From Blautia sp. (lineage in GTDB: Bacteria; Bacillota; Clostridia; Lachnospirales; Lachnospiraceae), in assembly GCA_017463155.1 (NCBI GenBank), contig JAFTPT010000053.1:87986-151985 (forward strand): a stretch of 64,000 nt of DNA, written 5' to 3'. How positions within the stretch are numbered: position 1 is the first letter of the stretch; every line of letters begins with the position of its first letter. Positions 15,684 through 29,094 of this stretch are shown in pieces. A program made the translations under genes and the position numbers. The notes under the pieces were generated by a model. That model made no database searches. It was not told the DNA's origin and worked only from the letters and a program-made list of their open reading frames with translations.

Positions 15684-17420
15684 TTACCCTATGGAGGGTG
15701 CCACCATATTTTCCAGCGCGATCCGGAATTTCGGATGACGCACCACAAAATGGATAGCCGGTTTGGAAGTGCGGGTGACGATGGCGTATCTTCCTTCGTG
15801 GATCAGGACCTCCACCCGCCTGAGTGCCCGCCGCCCCGTCAGCTTGAAACTGTAATTGGGGTGTGCGGCCTGAAAAGCCTTCAGCATTTCAAAATAGTAC
15901 AGGTATTCCTGGTAGGTAAGTTTAAGCGGCTCCTTGAGGAGAAGATCTGTCATGGAAAGGCTTACCGGCGCTTCCCGGAATTCTTCCTCCGTGAGGAACG
16001 GGATCTCCGAATGATAATGGCCATGCGTGAGGACCGTACCGGTAAGGATCTTGCGTCTGGCCACGTATTCCTGGATCATTTCCCGCTGATGGCCTTCGAT
16101 CCCGAGCCGGGTCAGGACGGAGGAAAGAAAATCATCGTCCAGGACATAGACCGGAAGATGTGTGGCGATCTCGCGGCGGTTCCCGGTCAGACGTGCGTCC
16201 GATTCCAGAAACTGCTGAAATTCATCCAGATGGTCTTTCGCGTAGATATCCATCAGCGGCTCCGCCTTGCGGAGCAGGTATTCGGCACGTTTCCGGTAAT
16301 AGCGGATCTCCAGCGGATCCGTGGTCAGATAGTACTTGCCGTCCGCATGGAATCCGGTGACACACTCGCCGCTCAGGGCAGCGCCTCCGGAAACATAGTC
16401 AAGATGACTGTAGATCGAATTGGCAGACTCCTTGAGGTAACAGGAGCGTACCAGGCCGGTGGTATAGATCGGAAGCCAGACCTCTGTGCCATGCCTCAGC
16501 TCGTTGGAGGGAAGGCTCATGTTGTGGATGATATCCAGCCGGATCCCTTTGGAGACCAGGGTGGTCAGGCTCCGGATGTAGCGTGTATGGAATTCCTGGT
16601 CACTCCGGAAGGCATTGACCGGAATATCGCTGCACATAAAAAGCGTTTCTTCGGAACCGGACTGCAGCGTGGCTTCAAAAAAGTCGAGTTCGCCAAGCTT
16701 CATCTGTTCAAGCCCGTAATAGACCCGGGGAAAGGGGCCCGAGGAAAGACTCTTGCCGGTATCGTCGGAGGCAAGGGAATTCTCGGCGAGATACGCATCA
16801 AGATCCAGGCTGTCCAGCTGCAGCAGATGCGTGCTCACGATGTCGGTATTCTCGGGCAGGATATTCTGTGTGCCGAACCATCCCAGCAGAAGGTTCTGGT
16901 AGGAGTAATCATCCATCAGGACATCGGAGGAGCAGCCGATCAGGTCGGCCACGGCTTTTTTGTCCGATTCCCGGCTGAACCGGCGGACCACAAAACGGCA
17001 TACATCCAGGATGAACTTGTCCGTGTTGGACGGTGTACGCTGTCCGGAGCAGATCCTTGACAGATAGGAAGGATCATAATTCAGAAAGCGGGAGAGTTCA
17101 GCCTTGTTGATCTCCAGCACGGAGATCAGGGTGTTCAGATTGTCAGCCAGGATACGGGGATTCGCCTTGCGGGAGGCCAGTATTTCCAGAAAAGCGGTCT
17201 GGACGGACTCCGGTGTAAGCCCGCTCCGGCCGGACTGCGCGGCCAGGTCTGCGATGCCGTGGCAGAGCTTTTCGAACTGAATGCTTCCCGGCATGGGAAT
17301 GCGTTCGCCGCTCCGGTAACGGCTGATCACTGTCGGAGAAAGGTCGGAGGCCATGGCAAGTGTTTTGGCCGTACAGTTGAACATACGCATGTAATCATTC
17401 AGCATTTCACGGAATTCCAT
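15684..17420 (-). CDS. Large HTH (XRE-type) transcriptional regulator
   Basis: A 578-residue protein with two helix-turn-helix regions near the N-terminus: residues about 10-50 (TAKTLAMASDLSPTVISRYR) and about 95-130 (INKAELSRFLNYDPSYLSRI), both Cro/C1-like. The remaining 430 residues are a large alpha/beta region of unknown role, possibly a sensor. GGGAGG on the minus strand (17429-17434) sets the start at ATG 17418-17420. It converges on the ComEC-like gene with a 6-base gap and is divergent from the aminopeptidase gene; palindromes in the divergent gap could be its own sites. Confidence 0.75.
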   Translation of the reverse strand: MEFREMLNDYMRMFNCTAKTLAMASDLSPTVISRYRSGERIPMPGSIQFEKLCHGIADLAAQSGRSGLTPESVQTAFLEILASRKANPRILADNLNTLISVLEINKAELSRFLNYDPSYLSRICSGQRTPSNTDKFILDVCRFVVRRFSRESDKKAVADLIGCSSDVLMDDYSYQNLLLGWFGTQNILPENTDIVSTHLLQLDSLDLDAYLAENSLASDDTGKSLSSGPFPRVYYGLEQMKLGELDFFEATLQSGSEETLFMCSDIPVNAFRSDQEFHTRYIRSLTTLVSKGIRLDIIHNMSLPSNELRHGTEVWLPIYTTGLVRSCYLKESANSIYSHLDYVSGGAALSGECVTGFHADGKYYLTTDPLEIRYYRKRAEYLLRKAEPLMDIYAKDHLDEFQQFLESDARLTGNRREIATHLPVYVLDDDFLSSVLTRLGIEGHQREMIQEYVARRKILTGTVLTHGHYHSEIPFLTEEEFREAPVSLSMTDLLLKEPLKLTYQEYLYYFEMLKAFQAAHPNYSFKLTGRRALRRVEVLIHEGRYAIVTRTSKPAIHFVVRHPKFRIALENMVAPSIG

Positions 17421-25400: not shown

Positions 25401-25506
25401 CGGGCAGAAGGTCCGGAAAAACATCGGATTGTCCGGACGCGCCGGAAGGGAAGAGGATAAAACCGGAAAATACCTGCAGCCGGATGGAAAGGGGAGATCA
25501 GAGTGA
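22405..25506 (+). CDS. Fusion of GT2 glycosyltransferase, HAD-like domain and a large C-terminal region
   Basis: A 1033-residue cytoplasmic protein. Residues 8-230 are a GT-A family 2 glycosyltransferase (VIIPVYNTEKYVERC, VNDGSEG, GFVDSDDY with the metal-binding DxD-like segment). Residues about 343-545 are a HAD-like hydrolase (FDLFDTLL, LFTTDMYL, HIGDDWEKDVEGA). The remaining 490 residues (DLNMDPSFLGWYAVG onwards, with YFCGRDGYLLHK and FDMGYSGRIPEAL) resemble the C-terminal region of other HAD proteins found in glycan clusters; function unknown. It overlaps the methyltransferase gene by 8 bases and the kinase gene by 4 bases. It could both add and trim or dephosphorylate a glycan building block. 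Confidence 0.85.
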   Translation: MDNTGKGRISVIIPVYNTEKYVERCIESVMRQTWEDLEILVVNDGSEGNIGTLLRRYMEEDPRIRLLSHDRNQGLYRARLTGVQAAAGDYIGFVDSDDYVSEDYFRTLLLKAGDTGADIVIGRTVREENGQRFVYNLHEACLPKETLQVNEIQDLFFGQEFRCYAWHTMWNKLYTRKLWERCLPFLSECRSHIVMGEDILFSTVLLDEADRLAAVFEEAYFYCANEDACTAGNGLTPARIRKIASDLSEVFRTGERYLEERGAGPEIREHFRNGQRFYSSMWRQTVRECLSEREQKECRKSLALLGSPLPDPVYCGYMESLRTPWEGRLSYLKKKIDDPRYSCISFDLFDTLLVRPFGRPEDLFLLLDEPYRRISGGHARFSDLRKRGEAEARASLIKEHPDREDVTLDEIYEVICRDYAVTQQTAERMKGLEKELEIRYTEAREAGRSLYRRAVFRGKRILFTTDMYLTADTIRKILARCGYNGPDGLYISSGERKCKKTGGLFLRILEKEKLKPEQILHIGDDWEKDVEGAAMAGITAVFFPKASEVFSGRITGCVTNRCGSLGLTLKGSRWDPGQAFSPGAAAMRGLAAQQYFDDPYRLFHPGSDLNMDPSFLGWYAVGMHLLGLCRWLLGEAEKDGIRNLYFCGRDGYLLHKAFLVCTEGRVTGIRTGYLPVSRRALLPVMVKTRTDFYQLPVDPLAQTPEGMLRLLSFCSRVYAPETRRRELCRAGIPPKEPFPDRSSYEAFIGFFLDHWYDEKKHEDARALVKRFYSRIRENSGIFDMGYSGRIPEALCEASGQRLKVYYVHEEPADTGFRKMDGRMEISSFYPFRPAVTGLLREYLLSEPSGSCVGFAERENEVVPVFERMSEDAGETVMLRCMQRNALLFVRRYMELLGDAGEAMSFLPEEVSLPFEGVLSGLSAADTRMYGKAVFEDLLYGGSRRIRVEAFAREKPGPGEKEQAAAPDTRSSYEIMLPVLNRRPKAVRALLILLGAPEIFGQKVRKNIGLSGRAGREEDKTGKYLQPDGKGRSE

Positions 25507-27152
25507 GACAGACGAATACCGGCCTGTGCCTTGCCTGCATGCGGGAACTTCCCGAGGGCACGACGATCTGTCCGTCCTGCGGGTATGACAGCCGGAAATA
25601 TGTACCAAAGCAGGAATACCTGCGGCCGCTGGAGCTGCTGCACGGGAAATACAGGATCGGCCGCTGTCTCGGACAGGGAGGCTTCGGGATCACATATACC
25701 GCGCTGGACGAGGACCTGATGATCCGGACAGCGGTCAAGGAGCTCTTTATCCGGGAGGTAAGCTTCCGGGAGGAGGACAGGCGGACGGTCGGCTGCGTGG
25801 CCAAGGACCGGGCTTTGTTTGAAGAAAACCGGAAGAGATTCCTGCAGGAGGCCAGGATCCTGGCCATGATCCGGCAGCATGAGGAGGAAGGGATCGTAGG
25901 AGTCAGGGAGCACTTTGAGGAGAACGGGACGGCATACCTGGTCATGGAATTCCTGGACGGGACCACCGTAAAGGAAATCTGCCGGCAGAAGCAGCCGGAC
26001 CCTGAGACGATCTGCCGGTGGATGAAGCCGGTCGCCCGTGCACTGACAAGGCTGCATCAGTTCGGCGTGGTACACGGGGACATCAGCCCGGACAATATCA
26101 TGCTTTTACGGGACGGAAGAGTCAGGCTGCTGGATTTCGGAGGCGCGTATGTGAAGGGAGAAAGGATGGAACCGATCGTCTCCTTCAAGCGGGGCTACAC
26201 CGCGGAGGAACAGTACGGGGACAGGGGAAACATCGGTCCCTGGACGGACGTCTACGCCTTCGCCGCGACCTTGTACTATTGCCTGATGGGCAATCCGCCG
26301 CCGGACGCGATCCAGCGGAAAAGGGGGCTTGGCATGCCCTCCCTTCCAAGACGCACGCTGAAGATCCGGAAAAGTGAGGAGGCGGCTCTTTTTAAGGGGC
26401 TGGCGGTAGAGCCGGAGGACCGGTACCAGACGATCGAGGACTTCTGGAATGCCTTTGACAGGCGGAGAAAACGCCCTTACGGGAAAGCGCTCCTGTTGAC
26501 CGTGGCTGCCCTGCTGGCTTTTTCGGCAGGATATCCGCCGGCCAGGGAAAAGATCGTCGAGAGAGTACAGATAATAACGAGAGCGGAAGACATCCGGGAG
26601 GAAAGCATGGCAGAAACTCCGGCAGAGCCGTCAGAAGAGAAGGCAGAGGATGTGAAGGAGCAGAGGCAGGATCTGTCCATGTACCGGGAAGGTGATCCGA
26701 TCACGGATCTCGGGGGCACAGCCACGCTCGTATCTGCCATGGACGGCAGCCTCGTGTGGGCGGTCTCCCAGGATCCTTCCCTTGCGGAACCGGAGATGAT
26801 CCTCTGGACGCAGGTCTGGGATGAGACCCAGCAGTTCGACATTGTCCCTCAGGAGGACGGAAGCTGCCGGATCCGGCAGCACGGGGAGACAGAACGCTGG
26901 CTAGAACTGGAGCCGGATTACGGCCGTCTCCTTCTTCGGGAGGCGGAGGATAACGAGAGACAGCATTTCCGCATCTTTTACGGAGGATACGGACTATGCC
27001 TGCTCCAGTGCACGGACGGACGGATCATCGGATACAGCCCCGGGGAAAACGAAGCCCTGGGGATCAGCCTGACCGCCAGGGCGTACGAGGATTTCGAGGA
27101 CAGCCGTCTGGAAAAATGGCGGATCGACTTTGCGGGGGAAAATCTGAAATAA
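25503..27152 (+). CDS. Ser/Thr protein kinase with zinc ribbon, one TM helix and beta-trefoil-like tail
   Basis: A 549-residue membrane kinase. Residues 9-30 hold CLACM and CPSCG, a zinc-ribbon-like start. The kinase domain (about 48-320) has GQGGFGITY, the ATP-binding Lys in TAVKEL, HGDISPDNIML as catalytic loop (HGD instead of HRD) and LLDFGGAY. A single helix lies near residues 328-346. The outside part (about 400-549) shows repeated aromatic motifs (QQFDI, QHFRI, KWRID) of a ricin-type beta-trefoil, not PASTA domains. It starts with GTG in the overlap GTGA. It may sense a glycan and control the export operon; that is inference. Confidence 0.88.
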   Translation: MRQTNTGLCLACMRELPEGTTICPSCGYDSRKYVPKQEYLRPLELLHGKYRIGRCLGQGGFGITYTALDEDLMIRTAVKELFIREVSFREEDRRTVGCVAKDRALFEENRKRFLQEARILAMIRQHEEEGIVGVREHFEENGTAYLVMEFLDGTTVKEICRQKQPDPETICRWMKPVARALTRLHQFGVVHGDISPDNIMLLRDGRVRLLDFGGAYVKGERMEPIVSFKRGYTAEEQYGDRGNIGPWTDVYAFAATLYYCLMGNPPPDAIQRKRGLGMPSLPRRTLKIRKSEEAALFKGLAVEPEDRYQTIEDFWNAFDRRRKRPYGKALLLTVAALLAFSAGYPPAREKIVERVQIITRAEDIREESMAETPAEPSEEKAEDVKEQRQDLSMYREGDPITDLGGTATLVSAMDGSLVWAVSQDPSLAEPEMILWTQVWDETQQFDIVPQEDGSCRIRQHGETERWLELEPDYGRLLLREAEDNERQHFRIFYGGYGLCLLQCTDGRIIGYSPGENEALGISLTARAYEDFEDSRLEKWRIDFAGENLK

Positions 27153-27196
27153 TTCTAAACAATCTTAAATATCCATAGCAGGACTTGCGTTTTCAA

Positions 27197-27249
27197 TATG
27201 CCTGTGCTATCTTACGTATAACATGATTACGGAGGATGGCACAGGCATG
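27197..27249 (+). promoter_or_regulatory. Long hairpin that covers the ftsH ribosome site and start codon
   Basis: Bases 27197-27218 pair with 27228-27249 at 21 of 22 positions (three G-U pairs, one A-G mismatch) around a 9-base loop. The 3' arm contains the ribosome site GGAGG (27231-27235) and the ATG (27247-27249). A weak promoter, TTGCGT (27185-27190) and TATCTT (27209-27214), would start RNA near 27221 and leave out the 5' arm, so only read-through mRNA from the kinase gene or an upstream start would form the block. Confidence 0.8.
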
Positions 27250-29094
27250 AGATTTAATGAACAAAAACCGAAAAAGCCGCTTTATGTGTACTACCTGATC
27301 GCCCTGGTGGCGGTCGTCCTGATCAATCTGCTTATCATGCCGAACCTGTTCGGAAAGCAGGTGGAGACGACGAACTACAGTGCTTTTCTGGATGCGGTGG
27401 ATGATAGGGATGTGATCCGCGCGGAGGTGCAGGACACCTATATCTTCTACGTCGTGGAGGATGAAAACGGCGGGGAGAAGGTCTGCCGGACCGTACGGAT
27501 GGATGATCCCAACCTGGTGGAACGGCTGCATAAGACCGGGACGGCCATGGAGGCGGTGAACACCCAGAAGCAGAACCTGCTGCTGAGCCTGATCGCCGGC
27601 TATGTAATCCCCATCGGCATCTTTCTGCTGATCGGCCACTGGCTCAGCAAAAAGATGATGAACTCCATGGGCGGGGCCGGCGGAATGATGTCCTTCGGAA
27701 AGAGCAATGCGAAGGTCTACGTCAAGTCCACCACCGGGATCAAATTCAGCGATGTGGCCGGTGAAGACGAAGCCAAGGAGCTGCTGACGGAGATCGTCGA
27801 CTACCTGCACAATCCCCGCAAGTATTCGGAGATCGGGGCTTCGATGCCCAAGGGCGCTTTGCTTGTAGGCCCTCCGGGAACCGGCAAGACGCTCCTTGCG
27901 AAGGCAGTCGCCGGTGAGGCGGACGTGCCGTTCTTCTCGATCTCCGGTTCGGAATTTGTGGAGATGTTCGTGGGCATGGGCGCGGCCAAGGTGCGTGATC
28001 TCTTTAAACAGGCCAATGAAAAGGCACCCTGCATCGTGTTTATCGACGAGATCGATACCGTCGGGAAAAAGCGTGACGGCAGCGGACTGGCCGGAAACGA
28101 TGAGAGGGAGCAGACCCTGAACCAGCTTCTGGCGGAGATGGACGGCTTTGACGGTTCCAAGGGCGTCGTGATCCTGGCAGCGACCAACCGTCCGGACTCC
28201 CTGGATCCGGCACTGCTTCGTCCGGGCCGTTTTGACCGGAGGATCCCCGTGGAGCTTCCTGACCTGAAGGGCCGGGAGGAGATCCTGAAAGTCCATGCCA
28301 AAAAGATCAAGGTCTCGGATACCGTCCGGTTCGAGGATATCGCCAAGGCGGCGGCCGGGGCTTCCGGCGCGGAGCTTGCGAACATCGTCAACGAGGCTGC
28401 CCTCCGGGCGGTCAGAGACGGCCGGAAATTTGCGACCCAGGCCGACTTCGAGGAGAGCATCGAGGTGGTCATTGCCGGATATCAGAAAAAGAGCCGCGTT
28501 CTTTCCAACAAGGAGAAGCTGATCGTGGCCTACCACGAGATCGGGCACGCCCTGGTGGCGGCCAGACAGACCGATTCCGCGCCGGTCCACAAGATCACCA
28601 TCATCCCGAGGACCTCCGGCGCTCTCGGCTATACCATGCAGGTGGATGAACAGGAGCATTATCTGATGACCCGGGAGGAACTGGAGAACAAGATCGCCAC
28701 GTTTACGGGCGGCCGTGCGGCGGAGGAGCTGATCTTCCATTCGATCACGACCGGGGCGGCCAATGACATCGAGCAGGCGACCAGGCTCGCCCGCGCCATG
28801 ATCTCGCGGTACGGCATGAGCGATGAGTTCGATATGGTGGCCATGGAGAACGTTACGAACCAGTACCTGGGCGGCGATGCTTCCCTCAGCTGTTCGTTCG
28901 AGACCCAGACGCTCCTGGACCGGAAGGTGGTCGAGCTTGTCCGCACCCAGCACGAAAAGGCATACAAAATCCTGGAGGAGAATATCGGAAAGCTCCACGA
29001 GCTCGCCAAATACCTCTACGAGCATGAGACGATCACGGGTGAAGAATTCATGGACATCCTCGCAAAGCCCGCCGAAATCCCGGCCCAGGCCTGA
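27247..29094 (+). CDS. ftsH: ATP-dependent zinc metalloprotease FtsH
   Basis: A 615-residue membrane AAA protease that degrades damaged or short-lived proteins. Two transmembrane helices (about residues 12-32 and 112-132) flank a small outside domain. The AAA module has Walker A GPPGTGKT, Walker [12 protein letters not shown], the pore loop [16 protein letters not shown] and the second region with RPGRFDRR. The protease has HEIGH as the zinc site. I chose ATG 27247 because GGAGG lies 11 bases upstream; ATG 27223 has none. Its translation start lies in a long hairpin. It follows the glycan operon kinase by 94 bases. Confidence 0.95.

Follow-up and report, generated by a model that had tools for sequence, protein, structure and literature searches.

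A hairpin over the ftsH start codon in one Blautia genome overlaps the gene's promoter and may filter read-through RNA

Introduction

In the fold-back inhibition of IS10, an inverted repeat silences read-through transposase mRNA that comes from outside the element. RNA thermometers such as ROSE and FourU also keep a start site paired. The closest described system is gene e of phage T4, where early read-through RNA forms an inhibitory structure that cuts lysozyme synthesis 100-fold, and the late promoters, which lie just upstream, give RNA that lacks the 5' portion of the structure (PMC3014915). The available parts of that paper report the structure in several related phages, while others have gene e but no apparent structure. 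Likewise, the available parts of a second study describe read-through RNA that sequesters the ribosome site of I-TevI, segB, and Aeh1 mobE, and late-promoter RNA without the 5' part (PMC2988022). As far as these sources go, the mechanism itself is already known, with T4 gene e presented as a well-documented case and I-TevI as a reported one. In the literature searched, which took in a minority of subscription journals, neither an ftsH example nor any chromosomal example of the mechanism was recognised. The available part of an Enterococcus study (PMC7724050) has ftsH only as an example of start-site mapping and makes no thermometer claim for it.

The locus described here lies in the window, by which we mean the whole stretch of 64,000 nucleotides that was analysed. 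The host genome, a draft of 3.07 Mb from the Blautia group, has three FtsH-like genes, the hairpin-bearing ftsH among them. As in T4 gene e, upstream RNA is computed to fold over the start site, and a promoter in the DNA of the 5' strand would, judged from sequence only, give a shorter, translated RNA that lacks the 5' arm. In contrast, gene e as presented in the available text is a phage late gene with a temporal switch, is found with its structure in several phages, and was tested by experiment, whereas ftsH is a chromosomal housekeeping gene with a hairpin in one genome and a computed structure. I-TevI, segB, and mobE, to the extent that the available text covers them, share with ftsH a ribosome site hidden in read-through RNA and a local-promoter RNA without the 5' part, but they are mobile elements inside host transcription units and ftsH is non-mobile. 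The IS10 repeat sits at the end of an insertion sequence, whereas the ftsH repeat is single-copy in its genome. Unlike the ROSE and FourU elements, the ftsH stem is too stable to serve as a thermometer, and the predicted mRNA from the gene's own promoter would lack the 5' arm.

Results and discussion

The hairpin at the ftsH start is real. Its match is far beyond chance on the local scale, the mechanism it suggests is coherent, and within the sample it is specific to the window genome. It was confirmed to have the geometry given in the first-pass annotation, which was made from the letters of the window alone: two 22-base arms around a 9-base loop, with pairing at 21 of 22 positions, three of them G-U. 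The one mismatch is A.G. The GGAGG and the ATG both lie in the 3' arm, as had been claimed (Table 1). In the predicted RNA fold, a 2x2 internal loop separates 16 pairs from 4 more, and the hairpin alone has an energy of -31.6 kcal/mol. Since the internal loop takes in two of the five GGAGG bases, the Shine-Dalgarno is predicted to be partly, not fully, paired. At 37 °C, the computed pairing is about 94% for the AUG and about 66% for GGAGG.

Table 1. Features around the ftsH start, in window coordinates
Feature	Position	Strand	Remarks
Serine/threonine kinase gene 5' of ftsH	25503-27152	+	may supply read-through RNA; its end is 32 bases 5' of the -35
Degenerate A/T-rich box	27151-27172	+	upstream of the -35; counterpart in many relatives, roughly AATTCTAAAAaGTTTATGAAATTT
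-35 TTGCGT	27185-27190	+	relatives often TTGAAA
Inverted-repeat 5' arm	27197-27218	+	overlaps the extended -10 with its hexamer and some of the promoter spacer
Extended -10 TGC-TATCTT	27205-27213	+	17 bases from the -35
9-base loop	27219-27227	+	predicted ftsH transcription start near 27220, about 7 bases past the -10
Inverted-repeat 3' arm	27228-27249	+	contains the Shine-Dalgarno and start codon
Shine-Dalgarno GGAGG	27231-27235	+	11 bases 5' of the ATG
ftsH start codon ATG	27247-27249	+	
ftsH, membrane AAA+ protease, 615 aa	27247-29094	+	Peptidase_M41, AAA, and FtsH_ext domains

The fold of the 91-base region around the hairpin has a z-score of -6.57, with none of 200 shuffles as good. Its best-stem score is 22.5; when the start region was shuffled 3000 times with dinucleotides preserved, the highest score was 17.5, which extrapolates to a p of about 1e-5. 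The hairpin is less extreme genome-wide than locally because 15 stems, itself included, score at least 22.5 anywhere in 464 kb, made up of the window plus 400 kb from the same genome; a Markov control of equal length had two of at least 22. The claim that the match is far beyond chance was kept for the start region and softened for the genome. Within the 464 kb, stems of this strength turn up less often at start codons than in the sequence at large. We calculated an opening cost, defined as the energy to open -18 to +12 around the ATG, with or without 100 bases of upstream RNA. Among 223 other gene starts in the 464 kb, which were picked automatically, one has a higher computed cost than ftsH (29.7 compared to 27.7 kcal/mol) and the next is 26.8; ftsH, which is overlapped by a longer reverse-strand frame, was added by hand. 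The sole sampled start above ftsH, at 16872 on the minus strand of L100, belongs to a gene judged tyrosine-recombinase-like by inspecting its translation by eye, and its Shine-Dalgarno lies within a 13-base stem, CTTTACAGGAGGG.

A nucleotide search of 145 relatives gave matches in four other genomes, all inside the coding region. Because only coding stretches were matched, ftsH orthologs were sought by protein in 64 genomes of the genus, the window's own included. This provided 49 leaders (29 loci and 20 further ones), leaving out genomes without a near-full best match, G043, G026, G011, and the second G012 copy. The ATG start is supported by these orthologs, since the alignment starts at residue 1, on an ATG, in 43 of the 49. 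No stem in the 49 leaders is comparable, the best scoring 14.0, or 14.5 when loops of up to 150 bases were allowed, compared to 22.5 for the window; conservation among related leaders, which would support a mechanism of the T4 gene e type without being part of its definition, is absent here. A scan of 397 family genomes with a strict hairpin pattern hit the genome of the window and no other; only one of the others belongs to the same genus. A contig search with an N-terminal query, which reached named Blautia records, gave nothing closer than 58% over that query, and an Rfam scan of the window found nothing at the gathering threshold at the hairpin. By the standard set in the first-pass annotation itself, homologous ftsH leaders that lack conserved pairing count against its reading, and the 49 leaders do lack it. 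On this result a conserved ftsH element was dropped and a lineage-specific element is still allowed. Judged by sequence comparison, the hairpin is specific to the window genome among those examined, and conserved control of ftsH is not supported within the sample.

The stem could also be a processing site, where a double-strand RNase would cut read-through RNA and free the ftsH mRNA. A near-perfect duplex of about two helical turns would suit such an enzyme, but the predicted fold has only 16 continuous pairs plus the internal loop, and there is no sign of conservation. We consider this reading quite unlikely.

Two observations touch on these searches. The window's one Rfam match is a T-box leader (RF00230, 36987-37231, 100.3 bits). 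Also, some relatives have an extra ftsH copy that is 64-69% identical, with one in-frame stop in each of G027:C37:1796-3616, G020:C155:40357-42177, and G006:C17:3857-5173.

Overlapping the 5' arm of the hairpin is a candidate promoter, TTGCGT-17-TATCTT at 27185-27213, with a TG before the -10. Promoters of the same type, with a score of at least 14 and always a 17-base spacer, were found in 42 of the 49 orthologous leaders, and the end of their -10 lies between 22 and 93 bases ahead of the start codon. Among the 48 leaders with 150 bases upstream, 41 score at least 14 where plain shuffles predict 2.4, and the window's promoter scores 15.5, equalled by 2 of 2000 shuffles; these figures are flattering since the sigma-A-like scale was built after viewing the relatives' leaders and the control was a plain base shuffle. 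The window's -35 is weaker than the common TTGAAA. Its distance of 33 from -10 to ATG equals that of five relatives (L026, L036, L037, L038, and L048). The A/T-rich box is in register with the relatives, and across box, spacer, and promoter together the window carries the consensus base at 28 of 50 positions. By eye the box contains an 11-base direct repeat and is perhaps a response-regulator box or UP element; a strict pattern for it matched only the ftsH leaders of 3 of the 64 genomes, which leaves a regulon undefined. From its sequence, the 5' arm forms part of the putative promoter of ftsH itself. RNA from this promoter would lack the 5' arm, since transcription is expected to start about 7 bases after the -10, near 27220. 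The local promoter proposed in the first-pass annotation is therefore upheld as a promoter of the genus type with a predicted start that excludes the arm.

A palindrome in this position might instead act as DNA, with a dimeric regulator bound over the -10 and the start region. The dyad spans the -10, a usual place for a repressor. However, the half-site is not enriched genome-wide, with 9 matches (both hairpin arms counted) compared to 11 for the reversed control, the dyad was not seen in the relatives, and the three G-U positions and one mismatch break it as a DNA dyad. The half-site counts speak against the operator idea of the first-pass annotation in its multi-site form, and we regard an operator of any kind as very unlikely.

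The opening cost of the start site was computed as 27.7 kcal/mol in upstream RNA compared to 10.0 in own-promoter RNA. The same difference in 42 relatives has a mean of 1.2 (sd 2.7, maximum 9.6). When the 5' end was moved along the region, the cost was 25.7-29.8 up to 27200, dropped at 27204-27208, and was 3.2-13.4 from 27212 on; in folds that include 60 coding bases, a 5' end at or past 27212 brings it down to about 10 kcal/mol, from about 28. Because this switch is sharp, the result is independent of the exact transcription start. The own-promoter RNA pairs in the computed fold with its own G+C-rich coding region, and its cost of 10.0 is above that of 38 of the 42 relatives. The predicted unpaired fraction of GGAGG is 0.20 in two of three local fragments compared to 0.34 in the hairpin, with the coding-region pairing being the weaker. 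In this model, the read-through and local RNAs differ in pairing strength and not as a simple on/off. The earlier statement that the gene's own mRNA is free was right in that the cost drops to about 10, but too strong in that opening still takes 3-13 kcal/mol depending on the coding length included. The companion statement that read-through mRNA is silent agrees with the computed pairing of the start site at 27.7 kcal/mol, and poor translation would be the consequence that we infer from it.

Another suggestion was that the hairpin acts as an RNA thermometer, with heat opening the start site of ftsH. In its favour, the start site is paired, and in other bacteria FtsH serves as a quality-control protease. 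In folds at several temperatures, the unpaired share of the AUG in the fragment 27100-27330 was 5-6% between 25 and 42 °C and 12% at 60 °C; in the fragment 27153-27290 it went from 8% (42 °C) to 14% (60 °C). Across these two read-through fragments, this comes to 6-8% at 42 °C and 12-14% at 60 °C, so the AUG is still 86-88% paired at 60 °C. The bare hairpin reached 20% at 42 °C and 31% at 60 °C. GGAGG is about one third unpaired at all temperatures in the read-through fragments and is not opened by heat, and the predicted own-promoter transcript lacks the 5' arm altogether. The thermosensor claim was abandoned on these folds, and we consider it extremely improbable.

We propose that the inverted repeat links the ftsH promoter to the gene's ribosome-binding site. 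Polymerase at the local promoter would start near 27220 and make a translatable mRNA without the 5' arm. Read-through RNA from the kinase gene would carry both arms, forming a stem of about 30 kcal/mol over the start codon and part of the Shine-Dalgarno. Such RNA would be poorly translated, tying ftsH output to its own promoter. We lean slightly towards this reading, in which the hairpin makes read-through RNA poorly translated and leaves own-promoter RNA translated. It rests directly on the sequence, a promoter type common with the relatives, the computed folding, and the lack of a detected terminator; the transcription start, the existence of read-through, and the translational block are what we infer from these. 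Against it, none of the 49 leaders has the hairpin, even though some have a close same-strand upstream frame with no terminator found (e.g. L014, L037, L048, and L049). A selected role is no more than possible, and the hairpin may be local insulation or an accident.

No terminator-like site was found in a scan between the kinase stop and ftsH. The hairpin itself was considered as an intrinsic terminator and rejected: it is followed by AGATTTAATGAA, without a U-run, and the terminator scan did not call it. Kinase matches at E 1e-40 were found in 24 of the 64 genus genomes, own included, the best other being 38% identical. Among the matches listed, none is on the contig of an ftsH ortholog except in G043, about 94 kb off, in a comparison made by eye with many assemblies fragmented. 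From these matches, the kinase neighbour of ftsH is not shared in the genus. A separate observation is that contig C13 of G047 has eleven kinase relatives among the matches listed (16335-48809), apparently an array of serine/threonine kinase genes.

If the hairpin works as computed, it is a chromosomal, non-mobile read-through filter of a kind familiar mainly from phages and insertion sequences, which suggests that such a filter can arise in a single lineage. Operon predictions from gene spacing could then mislead, since the kinase gene and ftsH look co-transcribed and would not be co-expressed.

The origin of the repeat is a related question. Template switching has been reported, in the available part of one paper, to make stems in single events (PMC8794818). 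A template switch or similar mutation could have placed a reverse-complement copy of promoter sequence in the start region, or of the start region in the promoter. The palindrome could then persist as a neutral by-product with no selected function if read-through is slight and own-promoter mRNA is unaffected. Besides the route by which one event can create a stem, several data agree with this. The hairpin is missing from the 49 leaders and from the other 396 family genomes scanned (one of the same genus). The bases from GGAGG to ATG, ATGGCACAGGC, are 64% G+C, where 40 relatives average 25% and reach at most 57%, and apart from one G-U position they match the extended -10 stretch, GCCTGTGCTAT, read in reverse complement; the -10 region of relatives is often GTGnTAT. 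A reverse-complement copy like that of a template switch fits because these G+C-rich bases mirror the extended -10. On the other side, the stem falls on the start codon and Shine-Dalgarno, the GGAGG-ATG length is ordinary, and no near sister genome with the pre-event state was found, so that the copying event and its direction would be reconstructions. The 11-base Shine-Dalgarno spacing had been taken as unusual and was dropped, since the same spacing occurs in 10 of the 40 relatives whose leader has an exact GGAGG. We give a neutral by-product close to an even chance, though short of it. On sequence grounds, the repeat is perhaps a recent product of template switching, and an origin as a by-product is compatible with the read-through-filter mechanism, not exclusive of it. 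The two could be combined, so that a template switch made a housekeeping gene deaf to its upstream neighbour in one mutational step, with only own-promoter RNA translated; we hold this rather unlikely. If true, genes not separated by a terminator would have a general and fast way to become independent of their neighbours in expression, namely short reverse-complement copying between promoter and start site.

The hairpin repeat occurs once in the genome, with matches of only 14-20 bases elsewhere, and membership in a repeat or insertion-sequence family was rejected for that reason. Other palindromes were seen in the same genome. Those with a GGGACGGTTC core (L099 12813-12902, L101 2189-2262, L102 9894-9943, and L111 12599-12671) are apparently a repeat family, and two alike hairpins with AAGAATTATCGCGAACGATAAGA in common lie about 2 kb apart (L102 17578-17636 and 19694-19764).
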